Notes under the pieces: generated by a model
What the model was told of the DNA's origin: nothing
The model's input: the letters and a program-made list of their open reading frames with translations, nothing else
Database searches by the model: none
NCBI GenBank assembly: GCA_023374045.1
Contig: CM041783.1
Span: 92,725,298 to 92,789,297 of the forward strand
Length of the DNA stretch: 64,000 nucleotides
Source: Limonium bicolor
Taxonomy: Eukaryota > Streptophyta > Magnoliopsida > Caryophyllales > Plumbaginaceae
Direction of reading: 5' to 3'
Made by a program: the position numbers and the translations under genes
Part shown: positions 9,487 to 59,725 of the stretch, piece by piece
How positions within the stretch are numbered: position 1 is the first letter of the stretch
How the letters are laid out: every line of letters begins with the position of its first letter

Positions 9487-9491
9487 ATTGG
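9487..9491. repeat. Target-site duplication of element E, left copy
   Basis: ATTGG lies immediately left of the LTR start TGTAACACC and is repeated exactly at 23755-23759 after the other LTR. Five bases is the usual Ty3/gypsy duplication size, so this is a simple single insertion into LTR D. Confidence 0.95.
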
Positions 9492-12400
9492 TGTAACACC
9501 CCAACCGTTAATACCATGCTTACCGTCTAACCGTCCTGTTAATCCTACGAGTTCGCAACGGAAATATTACTACTTACTACGGCGGGTGGTACAACGCCGC
9601 TAACCGCCCATACGGCTAGCTAGGCTTACCTTACTTACAGTCACGGTCTGATGATCATAGTATACCAAGCTACTAAATTACTTACCAAAATACCATATGC
9701 CAAATACTTACATCCTGGATCACCGAGTATTTAAAGTATATTCAATTACAACCCTTTCCAATTTACTAAAAGAATGAGTTCCTACAAGCTACTCATCTAT
9801 ACCCCAATCCAATACCTCCACTATCCAAAAAGGTGTACCCCATGGTACACCGGCTAACAAAAACTTACAGCCGTGTACTACTCAGTAGACCAATCATAAA
9901 TTCATTGTTTACAATCCAAAAAGAAAGACAAGGAAATTAAACTTCAACTCTCCTAGTCTTCATCCTTCACGAGTACCTGCGTGTAGTAAAAATGGTGCCC
10001 CAAGGGGCTCAGCAAACGCTGCGTATAAACACTGCATATACCGCGTGCTAGCTAGGGCACGCCGACTATTTGACGTCCACTAAACATGCTGTTCATTTAT
10101 TTCATACATACATGCTTGCATACAACATACATTCATTCACAATACATTATTCATTCCAAGGCAACAATACAGTAATGCTCACAATACTTACCTTCACGAG
10201 GTTAGCCAAATTATGCATCCGGGTTAATCGGAATGCTTTTACTCTTTTACTCATTACTTACTTTTTCTTACTTACACTTACTTAATTTCATTTACTTTAC
10301 TTACTCATTCTTACTTACTTACTCATACTCAAGTTAAGTCGTCGGGACCTCCGGCCCTGGGGACTACGTCGTCCCACCTCCGGGATTTACTTGACTCACC
10401 AATCCGGGATGCTACCCACTTAAGGGATTTGGGCCGCGGACCAGTTTAAGAGTCAGGAATTGGAGCCAACCTCTCGTGACTCCGCATCCTCACGCGTGGC
10501 CAAAACTATATCGGACTTCTACTCATTCCAATTTAATTACCAATTTAAGTTGGATTGGTTAGCTTGTTAGGAATAAGTTAGAAGCCCAAACACATTCACA
10601 ATCGGTCACAGTACATTGCAACATTCATACAAGCACTCATATTCATCCATACATTTCATGAATTATACAAACTAAATTTAAAGACATTATACAACAATAT
10701 ACAACACTACATATTCACAGGTAAACATGATAACTCCGATTCGTGCATTTATCTTATTTGGTGATCAATTAGCACACAACACACCAATCAGAGTAACCAA
10801 GATAGCATACGGGGCATGAGGAATCCATACCGTTCACCGTTGTACGTGTTTCCAAACGTCCTTCCGGTGTCACAAATCAAATCCTATGATATACATACAA
10901 TTGAATGATTAATCTAACTATTATTAATCTTAACTCAACTACTTTTGTGTTTACTAATCCATATTCACTAAGTCTTTACATTCCTTACACTTATATTTCA
11001 TTTTACTTACTTTCCATTACTTGTGCATGGTTTACATACATATATATATACTTATGTATAGGTGGGTATACATATATATAGATATATACTAGTTATAAGC
11101 TTACTGTTTTTTTTTGTAAGTATTGGGCCGTCCGACCCACCGTCCAACCCAAGCCCTGGGTCGGACCATTCCAGTAGAGTTCATCCTCTGAAATTCACCC
11201 TGTCCGACCCAGCACTATTCCGTCCAACCCGTACACCTCCGGGTCGGACCATTCCAGAAAGTTTCGGTCCCGTCGTCCAAGCTCTGTCCGACCCACGTCC
11301 GACTCACCTTCTGGGTCGGACGGAGTCAGAAACTTCGACGACGGAAAATTTTGCCTGTCCGACCCACGTCTGACTCACGGCCCTGGGTCGGACCATCCCA
11401 GAAAGATTTGTTGTCGTTGCTTAAGCCCCATCCGACCGACGTCCGACTCACCATCTGGGTCGGACGAAGTCAGAACCTTGCTACAGATTTTATTTTTCTT
11501 TCCCAATTTCACCCATTGCTTCCCCAATCTTCCTACATACATCCTAACATGTTTTTGGTACAATTTAAACACCCTAAATCATGCTAGTTCATTTCCTAAT
11601 TCATCACCCAATCCTATACTAATTTATACCCACAATTCTCTAAGTTTCTTTTCAACACTCACATTGCTTTCTTCCTTAATGCCTTTCGCTACAGATGTTA
11701 TTCTAGCTCTCTCCAAACAATAGCTCCCTCTTCTAATGTCATTTTTTAACCCCTCTAGTACATTACAACTATATTAACTATCTCTCCTAATCCACCCCTA
11801 ACTAACTAAATCAAAATCTGTTACAAGCACAATTTAGTCACCTAGTTTCTAATTCACTAAGTGTTCTAATTCTAGATAAATTTTGACATAACCTCCCCTA
11901 AAATCTTACATTCTCACCACATCATTTATTCACAATCTGTTACCCATTTCACCTGTTTCAAAGCAGCAATAACGTACAAGCTCTCATACACCAATACCAC
12001 TACTAAACACTCTTAAAAATTCCTGCACATGGCCTCTCATTCCCAAATCTATTTTGACAAGTTTTCAATGTCTTTTAAGGTTTCAAAACATTTGTCTTCT
12101 TTTACACATTGCACTATCAGTACCCTACCATTTCCATTACTCATTTCAACTTCTAAAAATCTGTTACATACATGTATATACCAAGCTACACAAAAGGGCA
12201 TTCTTACCTTGTTTCTCCTTCTAGTTTTCTTTCTTCCTCTTGTTCCTTCCTTCTTTCTCTACTGGTTATGGTTTCTCAACAATCTAACATTATAACCCAT
12301 TCATAAATACACCATTTTAATATTAACACTAACCCTAACATTACTTAAGCTTTTAATGTGGGTTTTAGGGTTTAGAAAATCCATTACCTTCCAAGGGTGC

Positions 12401-13354
12401 AAGTGCTGTTTGGGATAGCTCAAGAACAAGACTTCTCACACTCCAACAATGCCAAAAATCGGCTAGAATACAAGGGAGCAAGCAAGAGTTTAGCTCAAAT
12501 TTCATTTTGCTTTTAAGGCTAGAAAAAGTTGGAGTTTTGAGAATATTTTTACCTCAAAAGAACAAGGAGAAGGAGGGCCTTCTAATGGTGGTGTTGAAGC
12601 TCCAAATGGGACATACCCATAAAAACGAAAATGTTGGTTTTCAAATTTTGGAAAGATGGAAATGTAGCTCTTGATAAGAGGATTCCAATGGTATACTTTT
12701 TATAATTTTTGGAACAAGTTTGATGGAGTTTCAAGAGGAAAGAAGATGGAGTTTGTGAGTGTTTTCTTATTTCTCCATTGGTGTCGGTTGAGGAGGAGAA
12801 AAATAGAGAGGAGGAAGAAGATGGGTACGTGAGTGAGAGAGTAGAATAGAGGAGAGAGAGTAGAAAGTGAGGGTGGGGGTTACTTTATTGTTTTTAATTA
12901 TGTTTGTCTTTTGTGAGTAAAAGAGAGTAGAGTGTGTGTGTGTGTGTGAGTGGTAAAATTGGACAGCACACAGCCCCACAAGGGTTTCAAAAATTCTTTT
13001 TACATTATTGGACACATAAGTTTGTGTTATTTATGTTTCTACCCCACGACTTCCCGTTTTTGATAGTTTTTACTAATCTCTCGTTTTATTGATTTTATTG
13101 GCTCTAAAGCTTCACTAATATTCATTAATGATTATTTAGTTGACCAAAATTATTACGAGTCTATTTGACCCGCTTAAAGACACGTTTTCCCGGTTACCTC
13201 CAAAAACGCGCTTTAAGGTTCGTTAGTGATTTTAATCCATTTTGAGGATCCGTTTCCTTCGGGATTTGTTCCCTCATGATTATTTATACTTAATTAAGCT
13301 TCTTAATTATTAATTAGCCTAATTAATCACTATTTTTAATTACAGGGTATTTCA
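9492..13354 (-). repeat. 3' LTR of element E
   Basis: The repeat runs TGTAACACCCC...GGGTATTTCA in plus-strand reading and matches 19868-23754 along its length. It is the 3' LTR because the polypurine tract lies just inside it at 13355-13370. It contains hairpin array H3 (11130-11470), a CT/GA-rich leader-like block at 12770-12910 and a GT run near 12932-12949. A TATA-like box (TATAAATA on the minus strand, 13281-13288) is only about 70 bp from the LTR start. ORFs inside are not recognisable. Confidence 0.95.
11130..11470. repeat. Hairpin array H3, 3' LTR copy
   Basis: Five units start near 11130, 11202, 11286, 11357 and 11430, spaced 71-84 bp. Typical units have arms GTCCGACCCA and TGGGTCGGAC about 36 nt end to end. 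The loop contains a further GTCCGACTCA or GTCCAACCC. The 5' LTR carries the same five units. Confidence 0.9.
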
Positions 13355-13370
13355 ATCTACCCCCCTTAAG
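13355..13370 (-). other. Polypurine tract of element E
   Basis: The minus strand reads CTTAAGGGGGGTAGAT directly before the 3' LTR. The same tract precedes the LTRs of LARD1 (39244) and LARD2 (34340-34356), linking the three elements. Confidence 0.9.
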
Positions 13371-13819
13371 AAACTTTGCCCTCAAAGTTGCTCAAGGGTA
13401 ATGGTTTAGGTAATTCTACTCATTAGGCAAACCAATTGCACCAATGTGTCTTACTACACCTATGAGGTGTTTACTCCATTCCACATTGCAAACATACACA
13501 CTTCAAGCATCATACACAATTCACATACACAATTCGACATTTTCCATACATACCATTCCACAATACGCAATACATCATTACCATTCACAATACACATTAC
13601 ACATCCATCACACATCGTACAAGTACATTCATACGCTACACATTACATGTACCAAATTCACATACACTACATGTGCCATACAAAAATTTATTACAATACC
13701 TACACACTAAGCAATGCTTACCCCGAAGCAATGAAAAAGCAAAAGGGCTCTACCCCCCTTAAAAGGGGTACGACCCGTACCCGTATTGCTAAATGCTAGA
13801 CTCTCTAGTCTATGAACAG
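13371..13819 (-). other. 3' untranslated region of element E with a second polypurine-like tract
   Basis: This is the non-coding segment between the integrase stop and the polypurine tract. It is rich in CA/AT words (ACATACAC, CACATT). At 13749-13766 the minus strand again carries an AAGGGGGGTAGAG tract nearly identical to the functional one, about 390 bp upstream. ORFs here are low-complexity artefacts. Confidence 0.6.
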
Positions 13820-15388
13820 CTATGGGTACTTAGCCTTCATGGCGTCTTCCAACTCCCATGTCGCTTCCTCGACATCATGGTTTGACCATAGGACCTTCAC
13901 CATTCGTATAGACTTATGGCGAGTGTCTCTGGTCTTCCTATCCAGGATTCTCACTGGGGTTTCAACGTATCTCATGTTTGGCTCAATGGATAAGTGCTCG
14001 GGCTCTAACACATGAGAAGGATCAGCAATATACTTCTTGAGTTGTGACACATGAAATACATCATGGACACGCCCCAAGTCCTCAGGTAGTGCTAACCTGT
14101 AGGCTACAGATCCAACTCTTTCGGTGATAGTGTACGGCCCTACAAACTTTGGGCTTAGCTTGCCCTTCTGACCAAAACGGAAAACACCCTTCATAGGTGA
14201 AACTCGCAAGAACACTTGGTCGCCCATGGCGAACTCAAGGTCACGTCGTCTCACATTCGCATAGGATTTCTGTCTATCTTGGGCTGCCTTCATGTTACCT
14301 CTAATCTGCTGCACTTCAGCTAGCACTTGCTCAAGATACTCCGGTCCTATTATGACCGCTTCACTTGACTCATCCCAACACAAGGGTGTACGGCAAGGTC
14401 TACCGTATAGAGCTTGGAAAGGTGATATCTTAATCGAGGCGTAATAACTATTATTATACGAGAACTCGATAAGATGAAGCTTATCTAACCAACTCCCCTG
14501 AAAGTCCAAGGCACATGCCCGAAGCATGTCCTCCCGTGTCTGGATGGTCCTTTCTGTCTGATCGTCGGTCTGAGGATGGAAGGTGGTACTCAACTTCAAT
14601 TCTGTACCCAACGCTTCCCGTGTAGCTCTCCAGTATCTCGAAAGAAATCTGGTGTCGCGGTCAGATACTATAGTCTTAGGGACTCCGTGGTGTCTGATGA
14701 TCTCCTTATCGAAAAGCTCAGCTAGCTTTACTACCTTCCAGGTGTCCTTCATTGGTATGAATCTGGCAACCTTGGTAAGGCGATCGACTACAACCCAGAT
14801 CATGTTGAGTCCTCCCCTGGCAGGTGGGAGTCCTACAACAAAATCCATGGAGATATCATGAAATTTCCACTCCGGAACTGGCATAGATTGTACCATTCCG
14901 CCCGGTCTACGATGTTCGAATTTCACCTTTTGGCATGTTAAGCATCTCAATACAAATTCTGTCACGTCCGATTTCATTCCAGACCACCAGAAGTACCTCT
15001 TCATGTCTTTGTACATCTTGGAGGCTCCCGGATGGACTGACAATGTGGAACAGTGTGACTCTCGCAGGATGCGGTCCCTTAGCTCAGCATTGCTTCGGGG
15101 GACGCATAGCCTGCCATTCAACCGAATCAAACCATCTTCGTGTAGCTTAAAATCATACATTCTCTTCTCAAATGTACCATTCTCGATCTTGTGTCTGATT
15201 TCGGTTAGGTAAGGGTCGCTCAACTGAGCGTCTCGCACCTCGTCAACCAAGCTAGAAGAAGCGAGTAGCGAATGGAGCGAGTGTGCTCGACGGCTCAGGG
15301 CGTCGGCTACAATGTTTGCCTTCCCTTCCTTATACTGCAAGTTGATGTCATAGTCTGAAAGAAATTCCATCCATCTTCTTTGTCTCAA
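13820..15388 (-). CDS. RNase H C-terminus, integrase and chromodomain-like tail (pol 3' part)
   Basis: This open segment of 522 codons encodes the 3' end of pol. Residues 1-35 are the end of RNase H (RRWMEFLSDYD, ADALSRR). The integrase zinc-binding motif is H112, H119, C149, C152. The catalytic triad is D182 (MDFVVGL), D243 (SDRDTRF) and E279 in the HPQTDDQTE region. The GPF/Y-like region includes FVGPYTITERVGSVAYRLALP. The last 55 residues (ILDRK, MVKVLWSNH, EEATWELE) resemble the chromodomain of Tekay-type chromoviruses, which is thought to direct integration to heterochromatin. This part looks intact, but stops and frameshifts upstream separate it from gag. Confidence 0.93.
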   Translation of the reverse strand: MRQRRWMEFLSDYDINLQYKEGKANIVADALSRRAHSLHSLLASSSLVDEVRDAQLSDPYLTEIRHKIENGTFEKRMYDFKLHEDGLIRLNGRLCVPRSNAELRDRILRESHCSTLSVHPGASKMYKDMKRYFWWSGMKSDVTEFVLRCLTCQKVKFEHRRPGGMVQSMPVPEWKFHDISMDFVVGLPPARGGLNMIWVVVDRLTKVARFIPMKDTWKVVKLAELFDKEIIRHHGVPKTIVSDRDTRFLSRYWRATREALGTELKLSTTFHPQTDDQTERTIQTREDMLRACALDFQGSWLDKLHLIEFSYNNSYYASIKISPFQALYGRPCRTPLCWDESSEAVIIGPEYLEQVLAEVQQIRGNMKAAQDRQKSYANVRRRDLEFAMGDQVFLRVSPMKGVFRFGQKGKLSPKFVGPYTITERVGSVAYRLALPEDLGRVHDVFHVSQLKKYIADPSHVLEPEHLSIEPNMRYVETPVRILDRKTRDTRHKSIRMVKVLWSNHDVEEATWELEDAMKAKYP

Positions 15389-15680
15389 ATTCAGTTCTTT
15401 CTGAGTGAATACATACTGTAAGCTCTTGTGGTCGGAGTAGATGGTGATGCTTACCCCTTAGAGATAGTGTCGCCATATCTTCAAGGCGAAGACAATGGCT
15501 CCTAACTCTAAGTCGTGAGTCGGGTAATTCTCCTCATGCTTTTTCAGCTGGCGGGAGGCATAAGCAACAACATTGCCATGCTGCATGAGTACGCATCCCA
15601 TACCTTTGCCTGATGCATTACAATATACCTCAACTCCCTCTGTGCCCTCTGGAAGTGTAAGGACGGCGCTGAGGTCAATG
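15389..15680 (-). pseudogene. RNase H domain of element E, broken
   Basis: Reading through the minus strand gives RNase H motifs: an YCNASG segment where the family has an aspartate, [26 protein letters not shown], then SDHKSLQ. A frameshift near 15675 separates it from RT, and an in-frame stop at 15458-15460 separates it from the integrase ORF. The Asp-to-Asn change hits a catalytic carboxylate, so this copy would lack RNase H activity even if the frame were open. Confidence 0.8.
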
Positions 15681-16717
15681 AGTCTTTAAGGCTCTGAAAT
15701 GATAGCTCGCACTCGTGTGTCCATACAAACGGTGCATCTTTCTTCATCAGTGTAGTCATGGGCTTGGTGACTTTCGAGAAGTCCTTTACAAATCTCCGGT
15801 AGTAACCGGCTAGATCAAGAAAGCTCCTAATGTCGGTAACAGTCTTGGGTCTAGGCCATGATCGTACAACTTCTATCTTAGAAGGGTCCACTAAGATACC
15901 TGCGCTCGAGATGACATGTCCAAGGAATGATACCTGATCAAGCCAAAACTCGCATTTGGAGAACTTCGCATACAGCTGGTTCTCGCGCAGTGTCTCTAGT
16001 ACTTTCCTCAAGTGAATTTCATGCTCTTCTACTGATTTTGAATATACAAGGATGTCGTCGATGATGACAACAACTGAAGTGTCCAACTGCTCATTGAATA
16101 AACGATTCATGAGGTCCATGAATTTAGCTGGTGCGTTTGACAAACCGAATGGCATCACCGTGAATTCGTAGTGGCCATATCTGGTACAGAATGTCGTTTT
16201 CTCGATGTTTTGTTCTTTGATTGCAATTTGATGATATCCCAGAACGGAGATCAATCTTGGAGAAGACCGATGCTCTTTTCAGTTGGTCGAATAGGTCGTT
16301 GATGCGCGGCAATGGGTATTTATTTTTTACTGTGACCGCATTCAGCTCGCGATAGTCAATACAAAGTCGGAGGCTACCGTCCTTCTTCTTCACAAAGAGG
16401 ACCGGTGCTCCCCAGGGTGATACGCTCGGGCGTATAAACCCTTTGTCAAGAAGGTCTCGCAACTGTTCTTTCAGTTTAGTCATTTAAGCAGGTGCCATGC
16501 GGTACGGTGCCCTAGCAATGGGACCGGTACCTGGCAATAGATCAATTTCAAATTCCACTGCTCTCGGTGGTGGCATGTCGGGTAGCTCCTTAGGGAATAC
16601 ATCGGGAAATTCGGATACAATGGGTACTTCATCACTGAACTCTGGATCTCGCTCCAGGTCTTGTACATAACATAGATACACCTCTTGGCCCTTTCTGAGC
16701 TCCCGGTACATAGCCAT
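15681..16717 (-). pseudogene. Reverse transcriptase of element E, broken
   Basis: Ty3/gypsy RT motifs are clear: [83 protein letters not shown], the IDDILVYS active site (two aspartates kept), FLGHVIS and the connection region [13 protein letters not shown]. An in-frame stop lies at 16484-16486, and a one-base frameshift near 16245 interrupts the segment after LRSG. The open pieces are 16484-16717, 16124-16483 and 15544-16254. RT of this copy cannot be made as one chain. Confidence 0.92.
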
Positions 16718-17264
16718 AGCAGATATAAGTGTGGTCGAAGGCTCTCTCGGTCTTTGTCGGTAAGATACGGTAACCCTAGAAGGACTCCTCGGCGCAGAGG
16801 ATTCTACCCTTGTGCCGCTCCAACCAATTCATTCCAATGATCAAGTCGAATCCCAATCCATTGAATTCGATGAAGGAAATGGGAAACGCTTCGTTTTTGA
16901 TTTCGATGGTGGCTGATTGATAATATTTGGTGCACTTTACTCGCTCCTTCTATGGGAGAGTAACCATGAAGTTCGGTAGCTCATCCGCATCTAGCTTCAA
17001 CCTCTTCACGAAAGAAGGTGATACAAAGGTGTGAGAGTTGCCGGAGTCGAATAACACATTGGCATCAATGCCATGTATTGGGAATGTTCCCGTTAAGATG
17101 GTGCCGCTTCTGTCGGCTTGTGCTTCGGTGAGGATGCTCAGGTTACCTTCGGTACCGAGTCCACAACCTATTGGATTCACAGTTGGATAAGTATTGATGG
17201 TGGACACAAGTGGAATTAAATCAACACTGCTCTTTATTGATAAACCAACCATCATACATGCCAT
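16718..17264 (-). pseudogene. Aspartic protease and linker of element E, broken
   Basis: The open segment 16950-17264 contains TEAQADRSGTILTGTF and the protease active site VLFDSGNSHTFVS. A stop at 16950-16952 is followed in the same frame by DLIIGMNWLERHKGRI, the C-terminal protease motif. Near 16790 a frameshift joins the linker to the RT frame. The conserved protease-linker begins about 17167, just after an acceptor-like AATAG. The residues before it (MACMMVGLSIKSS and on) do not resemble any domain, so protease translation probably does not start at the upstream codon. Confidence 0.8.
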
Positions 17265-17307
17265 GTCTCTAATACACGTTACTAAAACATTACATGATAC
17301 TATGAAT

Positions 17308-18047
17308 TTAATACTTCCTAAAGGTAAGGTTCAGGCGTCCTGGTTTCATGTGTGTGGCATTGATTATTGCCGGCGGTGCCGTATTCAACTTGATCTTGTT
17401 GATCCCGTGATACAGCATCCTAGAGTTTCCACCCATGATTAGGACATCTCCTGATCTCAATACCAGTTTCTGTGCGAGGTCCACACGCTTCTGCTCGCTA
17501 TACAGGAATACGGCGTCATCACCAATGGACCAAGACACTACAGGCACTCCTTGTTCAAGAGATTCCGCTGTCTCGTCCTTGTCTTGGTGTAACCCAAGTC
17601 GTCCTTCTTTCTCATAGAAGTTGACGATACAGAGATCCGCTTCAAGTGCGGGGATCGGTTCATGTTCGCATTGTTGTGCAAGTTCTACTGCTTGTGTGAC
17701 GAGTGTCTGAAACTCTGGAGGGATTGTCGGTGGCGTCGCTCCATCTTGTGTTCGTGTCTCCTGGTATGTCTTGGTATAAGGATTCCAGTCCCTTCCCAAG
17801 CACATCATTTTTAGCTTCATCTTCGCTCCACCGGGGAATTCGGGTGTGTAAAATCCACCTTGACCCGTTCCTAGCTCGTTGCATCGTCGAATGATTGAAA
17901 TTTGTGCTTCGGGTGTCAGGTATCCCTTTAATAAGATCATACCTGGTCGGATGACCTGACACTGTTCGTTGGTGTAGTAGTGGTTGGTGATGTCGATCTC
18001 TTCTTGATTCAGGTTTACCGGTATCGGATAACAGATACTAAAGCTTC
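17308..18047 (-). CDS. AlkB-type Fe(II)/2-oxoglutarate dioxygenase carried by element E
   Basis: This intact ORF encodes an AlkB-family dioxygenase, enzymes that oxidatively remove alkyl groups from nucleic-acid bases. The first in-frame ATG is at 17940 (210 aa). The frame is open upstream to an acceptor-like ATAG at 18048-18051, and conserved-looking residues (VIRPG) precede the ATG, so the real N-terminus probably lies upstream. Numbered from that ATG, N107/Y109 fit the 2-oxoglutarate-binding NFY motif, H118 and D120 sit in LHQDKDE, H178 in LYHGI, R202 and R208 in GRLNLTFRKY. These are the metal and cosubstrate ligands of the family and all are present. It lies on the gag-pol strand between zinc knuckles and protease, a place where Tekay elements normally have nothing. 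It looks like the plant cellular AlkB-homologue family rather than a viral domain. The substrate cannot be predicted. Confidence 0.93.
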
Positions 18048-18202
18048 CTATGGTTACAAATTTCGTTTACGGTGAGTACTAGTTTCAACTACTTTATTTC
18101 ATGCTTAGTACACACTTCATTTTATTTACTCATGCATTCATTCAAACAGTTACTCTACTACATAGACATGCTACTTCAAGGATTAAAGGTTTAGATTATT
18201 AC
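18048..18202 (-). other. Candidate 155-nt intron joining gag to AlkB
   Basis: The same donor at 18202 and an acceptor AACCATAG ending at 18048 give an AT-rich intron containing a TACTAAG branch-site-like sequence. The join is in frame and would fuse the zinc-knuckle domain to the AlkB reading frame. Reading without splicing, the gag frame stops at 18183. Confidence 0.5.
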
Positions 18203-18911
18203 CTGGGCCGCATTTAGAACCGGACCCATCACGGTCAATCACGTGAAGGACATGCTGCCTCTGAGGTGCACCCCTCGGAGGTCCCCGGGATCCCTGTCCC
18301 TGTGGTGCCTGCTGGGTCGGTGCATCGCCAGATGCAACCTCCTTGCCTTCCCTCTGTTTGTAGTTTTGGAAGTTCCCCTTTGGCTTGGTGCTCTCTGGGC
18401 ATCTATTGGCTATGTGACCGGGTTTTTGGCAGCTATAGCACTTGATTTCCCTCCCATAACAGTCCTTACCAGGATGGTCCTGGTTGCATTTCCTGCACAC
18501 ATAGGTGCGGCCATCGGAGAAGGTTTTGGTGACACCGGAGCTAGAACCTGAGGTTAGAGGGTTAGCACATGTGTGCGTGGATATACTAGATACATTACTT
18601 GTACGATTACGATTTAGGAATAGAAGTTTACCCTTTGGTGGGTGTGATCTCAGTGGCTTTGCTGCCACCGGTGCAGAATAACCAAGCTCAAGAAGCTCAA
18701 CTCGTTTGCCCTGCTCAGCATGGGCACTGCTCTCACCTGGGGATTTCTTTTGGGATTGCTGAAAGAAATTCCCCTTCTTCTTCTTCCAACTCTTCCCCTG
18801 GTTCTGCCCCTCAGTACTGGTGTTTTTGTTGTTGGCTTTGCGCTTCAGCGCGGTCTCTTCATCCCCTAATTGGCAAGTGATTTTAACGCGAGAAGCCGCG
18901 TGATAACACTC
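18203..18911 (-). CDS. Gag C-terminal exon with two zinc knuckles
   Basis: From the acceptor at 18912 the frame is open to a stop at 18183-18185. It begins ECYHAASRVKITCQ, continues through a lysine-rich segment (SWKKKKGNFFQQ), and ends with two CCHC-type knuckles: CRKCNQDHPGKDC (one residue shorter than usual) and a canonical CYSCQKPGHIANRC. These bind the genomic RNA during packaging. The tail is Gln/Gly/Pro-rich (QQAPQGQGSRGPPRG). A further optional intron is possible at 18548-18631 (84 nt, in frame, CTAAC branch-like sequence). The exon ends at the 18203 donor or reads on ten residues to the stop. Confidence 0.8.
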
Positions 18912-18976
18912 CTGAAATCTCAGGTATTAGTCGGGATTCTTGCTTGAAATGATACTAAGGGTTAACTGATGTTTAC
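18912..18976 (-). other. 65-nt intron within gag
   Basis: The first gag ORF stops at 18962, while the next open segment is in another frame. Between them the minus strand has CTTCAG|GTAAAC and TGAGATTTCAG|GAG with a GACTAAT branch-like sequence. Removing exactly these 65 nt joins two complete codons and leaves 81 further codons with no stop. The alternative is a frameshift lesion, but the splice signals and exact frame restoration favour an intron. Confidence 0.65.
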
Positions 18977-19642
18977 CTGAAGGGAGGTAAATCTCGTGTA
19001 GCCCATACCGTACCGAAGGCGATGGCTCAGACCGCCATAGAAGCGATCGACCAACACCTGGCCGGTGTATCCTAAGTCAGGTAGAAGACGGAGGATGGAT
19101 GTGAAAGTGCGGTAGTACTCATCGACAGACATCTTCTCTGTCATCTTCAAGGCGTCCAGCTCTAGCCTTTTCTTAGTTTTCACATGCACCGGATAGTATT
19201 TTGAACGGAGGAGAGATGCAAAGGACTCCCAATCGAATGTGGGGTCGTTGACGTGCTTGTGCTTGACTAGCTTCCACCAATCCATGGCTGCATCTTTCAG
19301 GTAGTAAGCAGCAACTCTGACTCGAACTCCAGCAGGAGCTTCGAGGGTTTCGAACGCTGTCTCCATCTCGGAGATGTAGGCCTCGAGCTTAGCCGGATCA
19401 CTCTCGCCCCTAAAGCAGGGAGGGCGGAGCTCCGCTACAGCTTTTACCCAGTTCTCTTCTCTGGGTGGCGGGGGAGGGATTGGCCACGCTTGAGTTTGTT
19501 GGTTCTGTTGGGTTTGTTGTACGGCTTGGATTACTTGTGGTAGCATCTGTGCTACCGTGGCGGCGACGATCTCAGCTATCGTCTGCGCGCCGGGTCCGTT
19601 ATTGCCCCCTCCTCTAGGGCGACCTGGACCTCTTCCTGACAT
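18977..19642 (-). CDS. Gag N-terminal exon (capsid domain) of element E
   Basis: The ORF starts MSGRGPGRPRGG and runs 222 codons to the predicted donor. It shows the Retrotrans_gag-type capsid core: FRGESDPAKLEAYISEMETAFE, VAAYYLKDAAMDWWKLVK, FASLLRSKYYP, MSVDEYYRTFTSILRLLPDLG and DRFYGGLSHRLRYG. A Gln-rich and Pro-rich stretch lies at residues 40-62. Capsid protein forms the virus-like particle. The ATG lies about 210 bp inside the primer-binding site, normal for a leader of this class. Confidence 0.93.
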
Positions 19643-19849
19643 CTGAATATTTAACAGTTACGTTAGGCTCCGCAAGATATGACTCAAAGGTCTTAGATTA
19701 AAACAAGGTATCGTTCCTAAGAATGACAAGGGTATCCGTTGTTAGCAACGGTAGCTCCTAGTTAGGTTTCTAAGTATCCGTCTTAAGACGGTTGAAATCC
19801 TAACTCGGTAATCCCTATGCTCGGTACTATGGACATCAGAGCGTAACTA

Positions 19850-19862
19850 CGCTCTGATACCA
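19850..19862 (-). other. Primer-binding site of element E (initiator-Met tRNA)
   Basis: The minus strand reads TGGTATCAGAGCG, complementary to the 3' end of plant initiator methionine tRNA. It lies five bases inside the 5' LTR. The downstream stretch can pair with it (CAGAGCGTA..TACGCTCTG), a small hairpin also found at the LARD1 and LARD2 sites. Confidence 0.95.
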
Positions 19863-21443
19863 CTTTTTGTAACACCCCAACCGTTAATACCATGCTTACC
19901 GTCTAACCGTCCTGTTAATCCTACGAGTTCGCAGTGGAAATATTACTACTTACTACGGCGGGTGGTACAACACCGCTAACCGCCCATACGGCTAGCTAGG
20001 CTTACCTTACTTACAGTCACGGTCTGATGATCATAGTATACCGAGCTACTAAATTACTTACCAAAATACCATATGCCAAATACTTACATCCTGGATCACC
20101 GAGTATTTAAAGTATGTTCAATTACAACCCTTTCCAATTTACTAAAAGAATGAGTTCCTACAAGCTACTCATCTATACCCCAATCCAATACCTCCACTAT
20201 CCAAAAAGGTGTACCCCATGGTACACCGGCTAACAAAAACTTACAGCCGTGTACTACTCAGTACACCAATCATAAATTCATTGTTTACAATCCAAAAGAA
20301 AGACAAGGAAATTAAACTTCAACTCTCTAGTCTTCATCCTTCACGAGTACCTGCGTGTAGTAAAAATGGTGCCCCAAGGGGCTCAGCAAACGCTGCGTAA
20401 AACTCCGCATATACCGCGTGCTAGCTAGGGCACGCCGACTATTTGACGTCCACTAAACATGCTGTTCATTTATTTCATACATACATGCTTGCATACAACA
20501 TACATTCATTCACAATACATTATTCATTCCAAGGCAACAATACAGTAATGCTCACAATACTTACCTTCACGAGGTTAGCCAAATTATGCATCCGGGTTAA
20601 TCGGAATGCTTTTACTCTTTTACTCACTACTTACTTTTTCTTACTTACACTTACTTACTTTCATTTACTTTACTTACTCATTCTTACTTACTTACTCATA
20701 CTCAAGTTAAGTCGTCGGGACCTTCGGCCCTGGGGACTACGCCGTCCCACCTCCGGGATTTACTTGACTCACCAATCCGGGATGCTACCCACTTAAGGGA
20801 TTTGGGCCGCGGACCAGTTTAAGAGTCAGGAATTGGAGCCAACATCTCGTGACTCCGCATCCTCACGCGTGGCCGAAACTATATCGGACTTCTACTCATT
20901 CCAATTTAATTACCAATTTAAGTTGGATTGGTTAGCTTGTTAGGAATAAGTTAAAAGCCCAAACACATTCACAATCGGTCACAGTACATTGCAACATTCA
21001 TACAAGCACTCATATTCATCCATACATTTCATGAATTATACAAACTAAATTTAAAGACATTATACAACAATATACAACACTACATATTCACAGGTAAACA
21101 TGATAACTCCGATTCATGCATTTATCTTATTTGGTGATCAATTAGCACACAACACACAAATCAGAGTAACCAAGATAGCATACGGGGCATGAGGAATCCA
21201 TACCATTCACTGTTGTACGTGTTTCCAAACGTCCTTCCGGTGTCGCAAATCAAATCCTATGATATACATACAATTGAATGATTAATCTAACTATTATTAA
21301 TCTTAACTCAACTATTTTTGTGTTTACTAATCCATATTCACTAAGTCTTTACATTCCTTACACTTATATTTCATTTTACTTACTTTCCATTACTTGTCCA
21401 TGGTTTACATACATATATATATACTTATGTATAGGTGTACATA

Positions 21444-21450
21444 CTATATA

Positions 21451-21490
<40 letters not shown>
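21444..21490. repeat. TA microsatellite in 5' LTR
   Basis: About 20 TA units, with short interruptions at the start. The 3' LTR has only a short TATATATAGATATATAC at the matching place, so the run expanded after, or the other contracted since, integration. Confidence 0.9.
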
Positions 21491-21492
<2 letters not shown>

Positions 21493-21532
21493 TAGTTATA
21501 AGCTTACTGTTTTTTTTTTTAAGTATTGGGCC

Positions 21533-21870
21533 GTCCGACCCACCGTCCGACCCAAGCCCTGGGTCGGACCATTCCAGTAGAGTTCGTCCTCTGAAATTCA
21601 CCCTGTCCGACCCAGCACTATTCCGTCCGACCCGTACACCTCTGGGTCGGACCATTCCAGAAAGTTTCGGTCCCGTCGTCCAAGCTCTGTCCGACCCACG
21701 TCCGACTCACCTTCTGGGTCGGACAGAGTCAGAAACTTCGACGACGGAAAATTTTGCCTGTTCGACCCACGTCCGACTCACAGCCCTGGGTCGGACCATC
21801 CCAGAAAGATTTGTTTTCGTTGCTTAAGCCCCATCCGACCCACGTCCGACTCACCGTTTGGGTCGGACGA
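21533..21870. repeat. Hairpin array H3, 5' LTR copy
   Basis: Five units match those at 11130-11470, with arms GTCCGACCCA/TGGGTCGGAC. Several bases that break pairing in one LTR are intact in the other. For example GTCCAACCC at 11151 is GTCCGACCC here. Confidence 0.9.
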
Positions 21871-23754
21871 AGTCAGAACCTTGCTACAGATTTTATTTTT
21901 CTTTCCCAATTTCACCCATTGCTTCCCTAATCTTCCTACATACATCCTAACATGTTTTTGGTACAATTTAAACACCCTAAATCATGCTAGTTCATTTCCT
22001 AATTCATCACACAATCCTATACTAATTTATACCCACAATTCTCTAAGTTTCTTTTCAACACTCACATTGCTTTCTTCCTTAATGCCTTTTGCTACAGATT
22101 TTATTCTAGCTCTCTCCCAACAATAGCTCCCTCTTCTAATGTCATTTTTTAACCCCTCTAGTACATTACAACTATATTAACTATCTCTCCTAATCCACCC
22201 CCTAACTAACTAAATCAAAATCTGTTAACAAGCACAATTTAGTCACCTAGTTTCTAATTCACTAAGTGTTCTAATTCTAGATAAATTTTGACATAACCTC
22301 CCCTAAAATCTTACATTCTCACCACATCATGTATTCACAATCTGTTACCCATTTCACCTGTTTCAAAGCAGCAATAACGTACAAGCTCTCATACACCAAT
22401 ACCACTACTAAACACTCTTAAAAATTCCTGCACATGGCCTCTCATTCCCAAATCTGTTTTGACAAGTTTTCAATGTCTTGTAAGGTTTCAAAACATTTGT
22501 CTTCTTTTATACATTGCACTATCAGTACCCTACCATTTCCATTACTCATTTCAACTTCTAAAAATCTGTTACATACATGTATATACCAAGCTACACAAAA
22601 GGGCATTCTTACCTTGTTTCTCCTTCTAGTTTTCTTTCTTCCTCTTGTTCCTTCCTTCTTTCTCTACCGGTTATGGTTTCTCAACAATCTAACATTATAA
22701 CCCATTCATAAATACACCATTTTAATATTAACACTAACCCTAACATTACTTAAGCTTTTAATGTGGGTTTTAGGGTTTAGAAAATCCATTACCTTTCAAG
22801 GGTGCAAGTGCTGTTTGGGATAGCTCAAGAACAAGACTTCTCACACTCCAACAATGCCAAAAATCGGCTAGAATACAAGGGAGCAAGCAAGAGTTAAGCT
22901 CAAATTTCGTTTTGCTTTTAAGGCTAGAAAAAGTTGGAGTTTTGAGAATATTTTTACCTCAAAAGAACAAGGAGAAGGAGGGCCTTCTAATGGTGGTGTT
23001 GAAGCTCCAAATGGGACATACCCATAAAAACGAAAATGTTGGTTTTCGAATTTTGGAAAGATGGAAATGTAGCTCTTGATAAGAGGATTCCAATGGTATA
23101 CTTTTTATAATTTTTGGAACAAGTTTGATGGAGTTTCAAGAGGAAAGAAGATGGAGTTTGTGAGTGTTTTCTTATTTCTCCATTGGTGTCGGTTGAGGAG
23201 GAGAAAAATAGAGAGGAGGAAGAAGATGGGTACGTGAGTGAGAGAGTAGAATAGAGGAGAGAGAGTAGAAAGTGAGGGTGGGGGTTACTTTATTGTTTTT
23301 AATTATGTTTGTCTTTTGTGAGTAAAAGAGGGTAGAGTGTGTGTGTGTGAGTGGTAAAATCGGACAGCACACAGCCCCACAAGGGTTTCAAAATTCTTTT
23401 TACATTATTGGACACATAAGTTTGTGTTATTTATGTTTCTACCCCACGACTTCCCGTTTTTGACAGTTTTTACTAATCTCTCGTTTTATTGATTTAATTG
23501 GCTCTAAAGCTTCGCTAATATTCATTAATGATTATTTAGTTGACCAAAATTCTTACGAGTCTATTTGACCCGCTTAAAGACACGTTTTCCCGGTTACCTC
23601 GAAAAACACGCTTTAAGGTTCGTTAGTGATTTTAATCCATTTTGAGGATCCGTTTCCTTCGGGATTTGTTCCCTCATGATTATTTATACTTAATTAAGCT
23701 TCTAAATTATTCATTAGCCTAATTAATCACTATTTTTTATTACGGGGTATTTCA

Positions 23755-23844
23755 ATTGGAGGCTTGGAAAGATGCTCAAAACAAGAAAAGGAAACAAGGC
23801 ATAAGAGGCAAAATCGGCCACCCTTAGGAGATGAAGAAAAAGAT
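23755..23844 (-). mobile_element. LTR D, continuation after element E
   Basis: After the right ATTGG duplication the interrupted LTR D resumes for about 85 bp (GAGGCTTGGAAAGATGC and on). It is then cut by LTR B, which starts TGAAATACC at 23845. The five bases before the edge (AAGAT) would be B's target duplication. Confidence 0.6.
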
Positions 23845-26495
23845 TGAAATACCTCAAACCTTAATATGTTATTTAAATGTTTAATCATGGTATAATAAGG
23901 CTAAAAGTTCCATAGAAACGTTTGTAAACAATTTAAACCGTAGAAAACACAATTAAATACCTTAAAGATAATATGGGCGAAAATGTGCTCTAAGCTTTGG
24001 ATAAGCTTGGTTAAGACCTAGTAAGCTTACCAAGACCTTATTTATATGTTAATGAACACATTAAACCAATTACCAAAGAAAACCAAGCTTGAAAACAAGT
24101 TAAGACACAAAATGTGCTTTAAGGAGTCTTAAAGCACATTTTTAAAAATTGTCTTGTAAATGGGTTTTGAATGGCTAAATGTCCATCATTACTCTTTAAT
24201 TAACATGTGTACTACTTAGTATCACATTAGGAAGTCTAAATCAATGGGAAATCAAAAATTTCACAATTATGTGCCTTGGTTAGTGAATAGTAACTAAATT
24301 ATGCTAGTTATAACATAAGTCAATATAAGTGGTTTAATTAGTCAAAAAAGACTAAAATACCCCTAGGTACTTAAAGGGGGCCGGTTTTTATGGTGGTGAG
24401 TCACCACTCTTGCTAGCTTATTAAGTAAATAAAGAATGACTAAGTAAGTACTATTTACTTTAACTTACAAATATCTTCTAAAAGCAACTTCAAACTTCAT
24501 TCTCTTCATTCTCTTGCATTCCCACCGTCTCCAACCTCTCTTCTTCCTCTCATTCACGGTTTGCTACAGCACCACACACACCACCATCTTCAATCTCTTA
24601 TATCTCCTAGCTTCATTAACCAAATCAAATTCTAAGACCACCATTCTCTTAGTCTTGCCAAGCTCTTCAATTCTATCTTCTCAAAATTCCAAGAGCTCCA
24701 TTTCGGTGCCAAGAGGAATCTCCATGGGAGGAGCTTGAGCTCATCTTTTTACATCTCATTGTTCTCCTTTGCTTCAAGGTAAGGAAACTCAAAGAAAAAC
24801 TTCATTTCCTCTTATTTTGTTATGTGGCCGAAAATCACCATTGATGGTGTTCTTTACTTTGCCTTGTTCTAGCTTCATTTCAATCTTCAAAGGGATTGGT
24901 GGAGTCCTCTCCTGCTACTTACTCAAACTCTTTTCCATTTCCAAGGTAAAACAACTATCTTAATGTTTTAAGATATTATATAAACTAGGGTTTAATAATG
25001 AGTTAAGCTTGGAGCTTGAATGCTCATTACCTTATTTGTGTATTGATTAGAAGTTGACAAGTAATCAAGGTCCTTGCCGATTATAATAAAGGAAACAAGA
25101 AAGAAGTTTGAGGGGAAAATAGGTAAACAAACTATCTCAATGTAGTTAAAATGCCTTAGGAAAAAATGAGCTTGATTTGCTTAATAAAATACCTAAGGAG
25201 CCAATGGCAAATGAGCTAGTGAATTATTCTTAAGGAGATTATTAAAGGGCATATGTGATGTTGAGTGTATTTGCAGGTCAAAGGCAATATATACATGTGG
25301 AAATTCAGTGTTTATGGTTTATGCAATTTAAGGGCCTAAGAGCCATGTTATTTAAGGGCCTAAGTGCCAAGCAATTTAAATTATGTACTATATTGTGATG
25401 TAGTGTAAATTTGGGAAGTTTTGTGTGTGAGAGTGTTCTTGATGAATTTGGGTGTTCTTGAATGTTTGATGGTGAAAACAATGTGTTTTGGTATAGCAAA
25501 GTGCTAGGAGAACCCGTGTCAAAATTTGGATAATGTATAAGAAGTTTTGAGTGTTTTAAATGAGTTTTGTGAACTAGGAATTGTTAGAAATGAGTAAGTG
25601 TTCTACTAGTGAAGAAAACATGTATTAATGTGTTCTAGAGCGTCAAAAGGATTTAGGCATTATCTTGGAAATTTTAGAAATCAAATGAGTGTGTTTGGAT
25701 GTACTAAAGTCTAGGAGGAGTTTGTCTAAGGTTTAAGTAATGTTGGTGTACAAGAAGGAAATAATGTTTAGGTAAGAAATGATGCTTGGGATATGATGTT
25801 ATAGTGGTGAGGATGCATTTTGAGATAGTGGTTAACATAGGTGTGAAACACCACTTAGAAACTTAGTGAAAAATATTACAAGTGTTGGTAGATTTTGTAA
25901 GAACTTGAGTAACAAGTTGGACAAGGAACTAGGTAAGTTTAAGATGTTATTTTGGCATTGGAATATGCCTAAGATCATTTGGGAAGTTTATATACATAAT
26001 GGATGAGGAGAACCATTGCAACAAGACTTAGAAATTGTAAAAATGCAAAAGCTGTAGCAGTGGTCCGGGACCTAGGTCTTGGGTAAAGTCCCGGACCATG
26101 CAATTAAAAGGGCCGAGATTACGTATGCTACCTTGGTCCGGGACTTAGGTCTTGTACTAAGACCCGGACCACCCCCTTAATTAAAGCCGAGATTCACAAC
26201 CTATATTGGTCCGGGACTTAAGTCTCGTATGAAGTCCCGAACCACTACATAAAAATCGTCCGAGAGTTTAGTTAAGTGTAGGTCCGGGATCTTAGATATG
26301 GACCAAGTCCCGGACCACTTAAAAAACTTTGTTTAAGGTTGTTAAATGATGACTAATGATGGTGATTGGTTAGCAATGATGTTATAAGATTGTTTAAGAC
26401 ATGTTAGGTGTGTTATGATGACAATTTAAAAGATGGGAAGATATAACTAAGTGTGAATGTAAACTAACTTTAGGTGTTAAGTAATAAGTTAATCA
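23845..26495 (+). mobile_element. LTR B (LARD1 family), plus orientation, truncated by LARD2
   Basis: The LTR begins TGAAATACCTCAAACCTTA and aligns, reverse-complemented, with LARD1's LTR from 39243 down to about 36430. Shared landmarks are CCGGTTTTTATGG near 24385, a CT-rich leader-like block at 24490-24740, the repeated AATTTAAGGGCCTAAG near 25320-25380 and ATGATGTTATAAGATTGTT near 26375. It contains array H4 at the position where LARD1 has H6. At 26496 LARD2 starts, so the rest should lie downstream of the window. Small ORFs (such as 24514-24738) have no recognisable function. Confidence 0.75.
26062..26320. repeat. Hairpin array H4 in LTR B
   Basis: Four units start near 26062, 26135, 26208 and 26281, an exact 73-bp period. 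Arms are GGTCCGGGAC(TT) and (AA)GTCCCGGACC about 36 nt end to end. Loops hold a small inner palindrome such as GACCTAGGTC. A partial GTCCGAGAG lies near 26258. Confidence 0.9.
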
Positions 26496-36788: not shown

Positions 36789-38446
36789 AGGACAAGGCAA
36801 AACACTCATTTTCCAAGCCTTTAAACACTTAACCACTTTCCACCAAAATCTCTAACACTTATAGTATTTCCTCCTTAGGTTTCTAAGTGGTGTTTCATGC
36901 CTATTGTAACCATTATACCATAATATTTCTTCTCCATTTGAACATCCACTCTTAAGCATCTTTTCTTACCACTAAATGCCTTATACCATCCTTGTAGTCC
37001 TTTTACAAGTTCATTCCTTCTCGTTGTTTTCCCAAAGTTTGCCTAAGCCCTAGAACATCTCCGAAATAACTTTGGTGTATCCCAAAACACTCATTTGATT
37101 CCTAGAACTTCCAAGACAATGTCTAAATCCTTGTAGCACTCTAAACACCTTATAAATGCTTTCTTCCCTAGTAAAACATTTAATCATTCTCAACACTTCC
37201 AAACTCACCAAAACTCTTTTTAAACACTTAGAACTTCTTATACATCATCTAAATTTTGCCATAGGTTCTCTTAGCACAATGTCATACCAAAACACATTGT
37301 TTTTCACCATAAAACATTCAAGAACACCTAAAATCCATCAAGAGTATTCTCACACTCAAACACTTAGGTTTTCACCCTTTTACAACCAAAAACACTTAAT
37401 CACTTAATGCACATTCCTTACACATAAACATATTGTTTTTCCTTCATTAATCATCCAAGACACTCATCTTCACAAAGAATGTTCTTTACACACATCTAAA
37501 TTCTCAAACTACACTACATCACAATATAGTGCATAAACTTAAATTGCTTGGAACTTAGGCCCTTAAATAACATGGCTCTTAGGCCCTTAAATTGCATAAA
37601 CCTTAAACACTGAATTTCCACATAATATATTGCCTTTAACCTGCAAATACACTCAACATCACATATGCCCCTTAATAGTTTCCTTGAGAGCAATTTACTA
37701 GGTCATTCACCATTGGCTCCTTAGGTATTTTATTAAGCAAATCAAGCTCATTTTTCCTAAGGCATTTAAACTACATTGAGATAGTTTGTTTACCTCTTTT
37801 CCTCTCAAACTTCTTTCTTGTTTCCTTGAACCGAAAATCAGCAAGGAGTTTGATCACTTGTCAACTTTCTAATCAATATACATATAAGGGTAATGAGCTT
37901 AAGAATTCACACTTAAACTCATATACAAACCCTAGTTTAACATAAGTGTTTTAATACACTAAAATGATATTTACCTTTGAATTTGAAAGAGAACTTGAAT
38001 ATGTAACAAGAGAGGACTCCTCCTTGTCCCTTGAAGATTGAAATGGTGCTATGAAAGAACAAGAGAAGACACCATCAAAGGTGATTCTCGGTTACACACA
38101 AAAACAAGAGGGAATGTTGTTTTTCTTTGATTTTCCTTACATTGAAGCAAAGGAGAATGACAAGGCATGAAAAGGTGAGCTCAAGCTCCAACAATGGTGA
38201 ATCTTCATGGCACCAAAATGGAGTTCTTGAAGATTTGAAAAGACAAGATTGTAGAGCTTTACTAAACTAAGAGGATGGTGGTCTTAGTTTTTGATTTGGC
38301 AAAGGGAGCTAGGAGATATAAAGGTTCAAAGCTTGAAGATGGTGTTTGTGCTGTAGCTTCACCGAAGAAGAAGGGAGGAGAAGATTGAAGACCATGTGAA
38401 ATGAGAAGGAAGGAAGGAAATGAGGAGGAAGCTTACTTTTGGAGAT

Positions 38447-38453
38447 ATTTATA
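38447..38453 (-). promoter_or_regulatory. TATA box of LARD1 LTR
   Basis: TATAAAT on the minus strand lies in TAAGTATAAATATC, followed by a pyrimidine-rich leader-like stretch. LTR fragments A and B have degenerate versions at the matching place. Confidence 0.45.
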
Positions 38454-39243
38454 CTTAAAGTAAATAGTAACCTTGCTTTATTACTTTTCTTGTTTATTTG
38501 ATTGGTCAAGTGTGGTGAGTCACACATGAACAACCGGCCCCTTAATGTTTTAGGCCAAGTCATGGTCTTTGTTGACCAATTAACTTACTTATATTGACTT
38601 ATGTCATAAACTAGCATTTTTTTGTTACTATTCACAAAAACAAGGCACATTCTTGTGAAATTTTTTATTTCCCATTGATTTAGACCTCCAAATGTGATAT
38701 TAAGTAGTACACATGTTAATTAAAGAGTAATGATGGACATTTAGCCATTCAAAACTCATTTACAAGACAATTTTTCAGAAACGTGCTTTAAGACTCCTTA
38801 AAGCACTTTTTGTGTTTTAACTTGTTTTCCAGCTTGGTTTTCTTTGGTAATTGATTTAATATGTTCATTAACATATTTATAAGGTATAGGTATGACCATT
38901 AGGTCTTATACAGATTTATCCCAAGCTTAGAGCACATTTTTGCTCTTATTGACTTTAAGGTATTTTCTTGTGTTTTGTTTGGTTTAACTGTCTACCAAAG
39001 TTTCCTAAGGACTTAATTAGCCTTATTATATCATAATTGAATATTATTAAGTCTTGGTAGGCTCTTTGGGTCCTAACCAAGTTCACTCCAAGCTTAAAGC
39101 ATGTTTTTGCTCAAACTGTATCTTAGTGCTTTATTGCATTTTACTATGGTTTAAATTGTTCACTGATGTTTCTAAGGCACTTTTTAGCCTTTACATACCA
39201 TAGTTTAATATTTAAACCACATATCAAGGTTTGGGGTATTTCA

Positions 39244-50850: not shown

Positions 50851-51327
50851 GAAATGAAAATAAAAAATACTAATGTTAATAGTAGAATAAAATAAAATAT
50901 AAGGAAAAGCGGAAAGATGAATAAATAAATAATAGAATATAAACAAAAATAATATAGTAAATAAATGAATAAACAAAGAGGGACGGTTTTGAAACTAAAC
51001 TATCGCTGGAAACTCATTTGTAAAAGCTTGTTTTTTTAAATGCTTAAAAAATTGGTTCGAAAACTGTCTTATAAAATAGTGGCTTCATTTTGTCACGCAT
51101 GTTAGTACGTTTTGAAAAAGAAAGGCGACGACCCCTCTTCATTTCTCATTTCTCATTTCAGAATTTGCTTAATGGGGTGAGAATTTTTGGTGTCTACAGA
51201 TGGCTCCCCTTGATTCAATTTTGCAAGCCCTTGCAGAATTGGATCAAGGTTGAGAGGGCGCCAAAAATTCTCACTGCGGTTTAGTGGTGCATTGGGATGC
51301 GACCGTGAGTGTATGAATGTGATTGAA

Positions 51328-59244: not shown

Positions 59245-59725
59245 CTGCTCATACAAGGGTAAGCAATGTCAAATAAAGGAAAGCAACGAAATAGTCTAAG
59301 TATGCACTGAATTTTTCCAAAATTCGACAGAGTCTCCCCTTAAAAATTCATCATTCTCACAACAATGGTCAATCAATCCTTCAATTTGCAATGATAATCC
59401 TCAACCAATAGTGACCAGCAGAGACTTAGCTGACAAAAAGGTACAATGTTCCAACAATTTCAGCTTAATCTCAATCACTTTTTTTTTCTTTTCAGTTCAG
59501 CCATGCCAGATAAAATCACACACTCAAATATGTATATTGAAATCACAGTTGTGCAGTTGACACATCTCCATCCAGCAACTTACAGCAAATCAGATAATAA
59601 ACCCCATATACGCAAATGAAGCTCAGAAATCTCAATAATAACCAGCACAGTCTCGATTTTGCATACCTCAAGTTCCAAATCTTGTCAAAAACACATTAAA
59701 ATAGGTAGAAAAGTAGAGAGATTAC
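59245..59725 (-). other. Candidate 481-nt intron before the env-like ORF
   Basis: The donor AGCAAG|GTAATC is at 59725/59726 and the acceptor TATGAGCAG ends at 59245, with the ATG immediately after. Upstream is a CT-rich leader. Splicing would give a short 5' leader for the env-like mRNA. Confidence 0.45.

Follow-up and report, generated by a model that had tools for sequence, protein, structure and literature searches.

Introduction

Plant RNA viruses of the flexivirus group carry AlkB as a domain of the viral replication protein, which belongs to another AlkB group than the enzyme described here. Among plant long terminal repeat (LTR) retrotransposons, a Ty3/gypsy family with an AlkB open reading frame (ORF), Gypsy_Pa_2799 of Phalaenopsis, was reported in 2022 (Alvarado-Marchena et al., PMC9289625). 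It belongs to the Ogre/Tat lineage, uses a tRNA-Arg primer and measures 25.5 kb with LTRs of 6.4 kb; its gag-pol is one ORF, and a separate ORF2 of 565 amino acids encodes an ALKBH5-like protein that is active in vitro on N6-methyladenosine (m6A) in RNA (PMC9289625). Among 121 plant genomes the domain was found only in two Phalaenopsis species, by a method that the authors describe as unsuited to low-copy families (PMC9289625). With regard to splicing, introns are described as generally absent from plant LTR elements, Ogre and EVADE being the exceptions given in the accessible part of that source (PMC12786077), and BARE1 splices to make Gag according to the available portion of another (PMC3735527). 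In this study, we analysed a stretch of 64,000 nucleotides (nt) of Limonium bicolor DNA (the window, to which all coordinates refer; source assembly 2.92 Gb) and the LTR element in it, which carries a complete AlkB domain between gag and protease. A preliminary description of the window stated that Tekay elements are not known to carry AlkB and did not mention the published Phalaenopsis family.

We consider it quite probable that the element represents an intron-bearing Ty3/gypsy family with a long-kept capture of an ALKBH1-class gene and a spliced Gag-AlkB product. A plant ALKBH1-class gene would have been acquired in the distant past by a large, recently active family and retained ever since. 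This explanation draws, so far as sequence can tell, on the class of the enzyme, its presence in many copies and subfamilies, its linkage to gag and pol, the conservation of splice sites and purifying selection; the splicing itself, the packaging and the substrate of methyl removal are what we infer as its further parts.

Results

A complete ALKBH1-class domain in the window

The AlkB frame lies on the minus strand (18047-17308), a stretch with eight stops on the plus strand. As an exon (17308-18047) it encodes a complete 2-oxoglutarate (2OG)-Fe(II) dioxygenase domain of the ALKBH1 class and is open in frame from 18045 to its own stop codon at 17308. The ATG-started ORF (17940-17308) is 210 amino acids long and matches Pfam PF13532 over residues 1-208 (E 2.4e-45). 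The preliminary description gave no strand for this frame; the residues that it listed (N107, F108, Y109, H118, D120, H178, R202 and R208) were all found as stated on direct check, and every checked detail was right. The iron ligands HxD...H, the arginine pair for 2OG and the AlkB fold are present, as judged from the sequence and a structure model, and a 2OG-dependent AlkB demethylase activity is predicted.

When solved structures were searched by sequence, rice 5xeg was matched at E 5.9e-69, E. coli AlkB at 7.5e-21 and human ALKBH1 at 3.2e-11, and no ALKBH5 chain was matched at E<=0.001. The structure model, built from a 14-row alignment (pLDDT 91.1, pTM 0.88), had rice OsALKBH1 as its first-ranked match (TM 0.94 and 0.92), and its TM to human ALKBH5 was 0.55. 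Fold and ligands are like those of OsALKBH1 (5xeg/5xoi), with 48% identity in the structural alignment. Of the AlkB classes, plant ALKBH1 is the nearest to the window AlkB, with OsALKBH1 far ahead of E. coli AlkB and human ALKBH1. A chance ORF is ruled out by 1869 database proteins at E<=0.001, together with the TM of 0.94 to OsALKBH1.

In the explanation that we favour, AlkB in the virus-like particle would remove methyl groups from single-stranded genomic RNA or cDNA. These may be N1-methyladenine (m1A) and N3-methylcytosine (m3C) blocks to reverse transcription, or N6-methyladenine (6mA) and m6A marks, and their removal may help copying or escape from silencing. For a member of the ALKBH1 class, m6A on RNA is not the substrate to be assumed first. 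Two further readings concern the substrate, and both are compatible with a Gag fusion. According to one, the enzyme would act like rice ALKBH1 at integrated copies, which would stay transcribed through the removal of 6mA from their unpaired DNA or R-loops. The nearest solved relative is indeed OsALKBH1, and loss of rice ALKBH1 raises R-loop 6mA, as stated in the accessible part of the report (PMC10469495). However, if fused to Gag, a large share of the enzyme would be in the cytoplasm or the particle. AlkB substrates are, moreover, unreadable from sequence, which favours neither RNA nor DNA, and neither the erasing of marks nor the repair of damage. We regard this DNA-directed role as rather doubtful. 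It is also known that m1A and m3C lesions block reverse transcription, which counts for the other reading, namely that an alkylated template would be repaired and no regulatory mark erased. Moreover, the next nearest fold is E. coli AlkB (TM ~0.81), and repair has been postulated for viral AlkB (PMC9289625, Discussion). Against repair stands the ALKBH1 class, whose described role in plants, in the portions of the sources at hand, is 6mA demethylation; repair is possible, though not what we expect.

AlkB in many copies and several subfamilies

The genome searches gave best matches in order of similarity, which are neither copy counts nor an unbiased sample for intactness. With the window AlkB as query, 150 of the 150 best listed matches were at least 97% identical, four of them with an internal stop. 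Two database proteins as queries, P0002 and P0004, found at least 141 rows at 68-74% identity and at least 150 rows at 64-69% identity, respectively, and the two lists share at least two places. The same genome holds several diverged AlkB-bearing subfamilies. Element copies fill the best matches listed, and the cellular ALKBH1 gene of the host was not among them.

The order gag, zinc knuckle, AlkB, protease (PR), reverse transcriptase (RT) and integrase (IN) was confirmed in the window, in agreement with the preliminary description, which had placed AlkB between zinc knuckle and protease. Carriage by an LTR retrotransposon is likewise borne out by linkage to gag and pol: among 38 loci with the AlkB frame aligned without gaps, a gag or zinc-knuckle match was upstream in 36 and a PR or RT match downstream in 36. 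In addition, we chose 20 of the best 150 gag matches, spread down the list, and examined the stretch behind each (the gag-chosen copies); AlkB was behind gag in 20 of 20. That only this copy has the ORF, as the preliminary description had allowed for, is ruled out by these 20 copies together with the 150 matches at 97% identity or more; the copies are many and fall into several subfamilies.

Selection on AlkB

The ratio of nonsynonymous to synonymous divergence (dN/dS) is quoted between groups only for pairs with dS <=1.3, the most distant groups being saturated. The five pairs, two of which share locus L035, gave AlkB values of 0.082 (95% 0.047-0.139, dS 0.74), 0.103 (0.061-0.168, dS 0.72), 0.109 (0.066-0.179, dS 0.79), 0.126 (0.074-0.199, dS 1.05) and 0.135 (0.075-0.214, dS 1.29). 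For the gag-chosen set, locus L068 with 117 nt missing was left out, and the remaining 19 of the 20 copies had mean proportions of synonymous (pS) and nonsynonymous (pN) differences of 0.100 and 0.023, a dN/dS of 0.22, and pN below pS in 171 of 171 pairs. The ratio of silent to changing variants in this set was 33:21 for shared variants and 31:56 for singletons (Fisher p 0.005), as expected when selection acts on the lineage that replicates and dead copies drift. The gag-chosen set replaces a value of 0.046 within g1, the group of the window copy, which was not used because its loci were picked by AlkB similarity; within group g2, with loci picked by similarity to P0002, the median was 0.15. 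Two RT values, 0.436 (L012/L021) and 0.219 (L020/L034), are not relied on and perhaps reflect alignment across lesions.

The positions of the changes were also compared. Differences between the window AlkB and the database protein P0001 hit columns that are near-invariant among 53 other plant-type rows, named and unnamed, 5 times against 22 expected; nine comparisons of this kind were made, of which the weakest gave 8 against 15 (p 0.006). All seven ligands are intact in 40 of the 41 copies chosen by AlkB and in 16 of the 20 gag-chosen ones.

On these comparisons the AlkB frame is under purifying selection; its lack, a further doubt in the preliminary description, is ruled out by the five between-group values and the 171 pairs. 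The same evidence bears on the idea that AlkB is a passenger, a captured host fragment in an intron-like gap with no function for the element. The lesions of most single copies (15 of the 20 gag-chosen ones) would suit it, but the between-group dN/dS of 0.08-0.14, shared variants far more silent than singletons and the kept ligands argue against it, and we consider it highly improbable.

Predicted introns and splicing

All exons and introns below are on the minus strand. In the window copy, gag is predicted to consist of exon 1 (18977-19642) with capsid domains PF03732 and PF19259, exon 2 (18632-18911) and exon 3 (18203-18547) with a zinc knuckle, as placed by splice reading and, for exons 1 and 3, Pfam. 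Between them are predicted intron 1 (18912-18976, 65 nt), which is longer in L002, L003, L007 and L008 as aligned, and predicted intron 2 (18548-18631, 84 nt; splice reading). Predicted intron 3 (18048-18202, 155 nt, phase 1) joins gag to AlkB. A predicted alternative intron 3 (17168-18202, 1035 nt) has the same donor and phase and would join gag to the start of the protease-pol exon (16950-17167; Pfam and alignment) at a predicted alternative acceptor (first base 17167), with AlkB skipped. With the three introns (18976-18912, 18631-18548 and 18202-18048) removed and no letter changed, the window copy has a single open Gag-AlkB frame, which begins at the gag start, ends at the stop of AlkB and is 676 residues long. 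In this copy the predicted introns have 31-38% G+C and the exons 48-56%, and the capsid exon ends at CTTCAG^GTAAAC.

About three quarters (112) of the best 150 gag matches have an open gag frame of 231 codons, and the rest have 226 to 276, with one of 461. Random breaks would not give this identical frame and are an unlikely source of it. A first reading of gag as broken by frame shifts was dropped in view of the common frame and the opening of gag by intron removal; a gag split by introns is the best reading. The same cuts were made in seven other g1 loci that start inside exon 1 or have missing letters. L002 and L007 are open as far as the loci reach, and their frame-breaking length differences are outside the exons only.

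The splice sites themselves are well kept. The AG of the AlkB acceptor is present in 37 of 38 AlkB loci and 20 of 20 gag-chosen copies, and the GT of the last gag donor in all 20 of the latter, where the intron differs from that of the window copy at 8-20 of ~150 sites per copy. The other groups have GTAAC, GTAAG or GTTAG as donor (GT in 19 of 19 aligned), and the protease acceptor keeps AG in 24 of 24 aligned copies; both are in phase 1 where worked out. Aligned copies of several groups have acceptors and donors at matching places.

With one donor and two acceptors of the same phase, alternative splicing could choose between Gag-AlkB and Gag-Pol. Use of the near acceptor would give a Gag-AlkB fusion ending at the AlkB stop, while use of the far acceptor would skip AlkB and give Gag-PR-RT-IN; in the window copy the latter product has an uninterrupted frame as far as residue 503, where the protease lesion lies. 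When intron 3 is retained, gag runs six residues past the donor and then stops (18202-18183, minus), so that plain Gag with six extra residues is a possible third product of the same RNA.

Production of AlkB as a separate protein from its own ATG (17940), on a subgenomic or bicistronic RNA and acting in the cell on host or element nucleic acid, not in the particle, seems unlikely to us. In its favour, the first residue of the catalytic domain is a methionine that cellular proteins conserve, the domain is complete alone, and the orchid ORF2 is separate (PMC9289625). On the other hand, the 35 codons that precede the ATG are free of stops and contain an FDIC-like motif as in cellular proteins, the acceptor at a matching place in 37 of 38 loci lies ahead of those codons, and donor and acceptor phases match in every group worked out.

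Two further features of this region were observed. An AATAAA is present at 17238-17233 (minus), ~70 nt after the AlkB stop, in seven of eight g1 loci and in L014, L031 and L035, and with an early poly(A) site AlkB could become a genuine terminal exon. The start of the protease contains an extra predicted intron (VITG^TFPV) in the g2 loci, L011, L014, L022, L031 and L035, which is absent from the window group and L009. The groups with this intron also have another predicted gag intron, a sign of intron gain or loss within the element family.

Relatives outside the genome and origin of the capture

Among the 120 best AlkB relatives listed from the database, the closest are six proteins of 63-72% identity, and no named protein exceeds 55%. 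A search with gag exon 1, which covered proteins of 0.55 to 1.75 times the length of the exon product, passed a single database protein (64% identity). This protein and the AlkB relative P0001 (72%) are each on an ENA contig of 26,621 bases, and the equal size and source suggest that the two are on one contig. P0002 and P0004 reach no more than 74% and 69% in the Limonium genome, and therefore come from other hosts. In the integrase search, none of the best 120 was on a contig sized like the AlkB contigs, long angiosperm proteins filling the list. One protein, P0152 (ENA contig of 13,509 bases), matches the integrase end of the element at 85% identity across 63% of the query. None of the named proteins in the best 120 listed comes as close, and by this identity P0152 appears to be a near relative of the window element in public assemblies. 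A scan of IMG/VR found no relative.

In a first tree, the six database proteins and the window AlkB grouped together to the exclusion of all other rows (SH-aLRT 97). When 11 element rows of this genome were included, the database proteins interleaved with its subfamilies. This interleaving indicates a capture older than the split of these subfamilies, and the base of the tree accommodates one capture or more. The window AlkB was not nested in cellular angiosperm ALKBH1 in the tree with 24 named rows; these 24 ALKBH1-type proteins are a clade of their own (99/92) with no element copy inside. Of the captured host gene proposed in the preliminary description, the carriage stands; this host's gene is only a possible donor, the element enzymes falling outside the clade of the 24 named angiosperm proteins.

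Structure and state of the window element

The element is complete at its ends (9492-23754, 14.3 kb, LTRs of 3.9 kb), as first described. Repeat comparison placed the 5' LTR at 19868-23754 and the 3' LTR at 9492-13354 (minus strand), flanked by the target site duplication ATTGG at 9487-9491 and 23755-23759 (direct reading, plus strand). The primer binding site TGGTATCAGAGC (19851-19862) and a purine-rich tract before the 3' LTR (13356-13367) were read directly on the minus strand. TGGTATCAGAGC would fit tRNA-Met. A tRNA-Met primer is found in most chromoviruses according to the available part of the source (PMC6317226). Pfam scored one zinc knuckle. On the minus strand, RT is at 15544-16483 in two overlapping ORFs with a frame shift (ORFs and Pfam), and IN, with zinc-binding, core and SH3-like parts and a weak chromodomain, is at 13820-15388 (Pfam). 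The integrase core scored 26.1 bits, below the cut-off of 32.6, and the chromodomain PF00385, after the integrase, 19.9 bits, below that of 25.1. Two LTRs, target site duplication, primer binding site and the order gag-PR-RT-IN identify a Ty3/gypsy element, which, as part of the overall explanation that we favour, is probably of chromovirus type; Tekay, the clade named in the preliminary description, would be a candidate assignment. The protease frame is interrupted by a stop (its ORF ends at 16950) and RT by the frame shift, so that the window element is a dead copy, not an intact one.

The two LTRs of the window element have 73 mismatches in 3895 aligned columns. For ten further g1 copies, four LTR pairs have 22/3946, 27/3861, 70/3898 and 41/2093 mismatches; of the remaining copies, one has 4/313 and one, a poor pair in two pieces, 289/3438, and the LTR mate was absent at the expected place in 4 of the 10. 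The low mismatch suggests that the g1 group moved not long ago on any usual plant rate. A 103-nt unit at 144-nt spacing is repeated inside each LTR (11233-11479 and 21636-21882).

Other repeats are present in the window. The AlkB element adjoins one member of an inverted pair of 1.6 kb repeats (23876-25504 and 37409-39045, 81% identity), with a partial copy at 1-1023. A satellite-like array of a 180-bp tandem unit (6.5 copies, 97% matches) is at 51322-52484, and remnants of other elements, with integrase domains and an ORF weakly like Transposase_32, are at 61230-61934 and 58798-59256.

Discussion

Several results weigh against the favoured explanation of a kept and spliced Gag-AlkB. The introns are predicted from comparative sequence evidence only; five of the eight g1 loci had 2 to 9 stops when cut in this way, the other three, the window among them, being open, and L005 has lost the AlkB acceptor. 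The AlkB frame is free of stops and indels in 5 of the 20 gag-chosen copies, and a ligand residue is changed in 4 of these 20 and in 1 of the 41 copies chosen by AlkB. In the first three between-group pairs, AlkB evolves faster than RT (0.08-0.11 against 0.03-0.04), and within-group AlkB pairs gave 0.146, 0.288 and 0.103 with wider intervals (widest 0.13-0.65). The lesions in gag-chosen copies are as expected for dead copies and are no proof of function.

In the favoured explanation, Gag would carry AlkB into the virus-like particle, near genomic RNA, primer tRNA and nascent cDNA. That the spliceosome acts as a switch between Gag-AlkB and Gag-Pol, and that the enzyme in the particle edits the packaged genome or cDNA, has in our judgement about an even chance of being true. 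If so, it would be, to our knowledge, the first capsid-tethered methyl eraser, and the switch would give a reason for the element to keep several introns. What makes the system notable is that the enzyme seems to belong to a capsid protein made by alternative splicing. With AlkB fused to Gag, the particle would be a definite site of action open to experiment, and natural variants for comparison are plentiful in the dense family of this one genome. ORF-based annotation would call this gag broken.

With regard to known systems, the window family resembles the flexiviruses in having AlkB in a plant parasite that copies RNA. Like Gypsy_Pa_2799, it is a plant Ty3/gypsy-type family of high copy number in which a complete AlkB 2OG-Fe(II) domain is kept through replication. 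It differs in its weak chromodomain after the integrase, the TGGTATCAGAGC primer site, the size of 14.3 kb and the LTRs of 3.9 kb. Moreover, its AlkB lies between gag and protease, is of the ALKBH1 class and is predicted to be fused to Gag by splicing. Membership in the orchid family was rejected on AlkB class and place (PMC9289625). Because primer site, size, AlkB class, place and predicted expression mode all differ, the window family is most simply a second, independent capture of AlkB. Searches of one open-licence library of papers brought up none recognised as dealing with an AlkB-bearing or multi-intron chromovirus. Through this second, apparently independent capture, with an enzyme of another class and an element of another kind, the methylation of element RNA or cDNA becomes a likely field of conflict between plants and their retrotransposons.

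The intron architecture is relevant to the general picture of plant LTR elements as free of introns. In Ogre, BARE1 and EVADE, as here predicted, splicing separates Gag and Pol products, though by one splicing event each in the accessible parts of the sources (PMC3735527, PMC12786077). The window element, in contrast, has at least three predicted introns before AlkB, two predicted acceptors and an enzyme as a putative alternative last exon.
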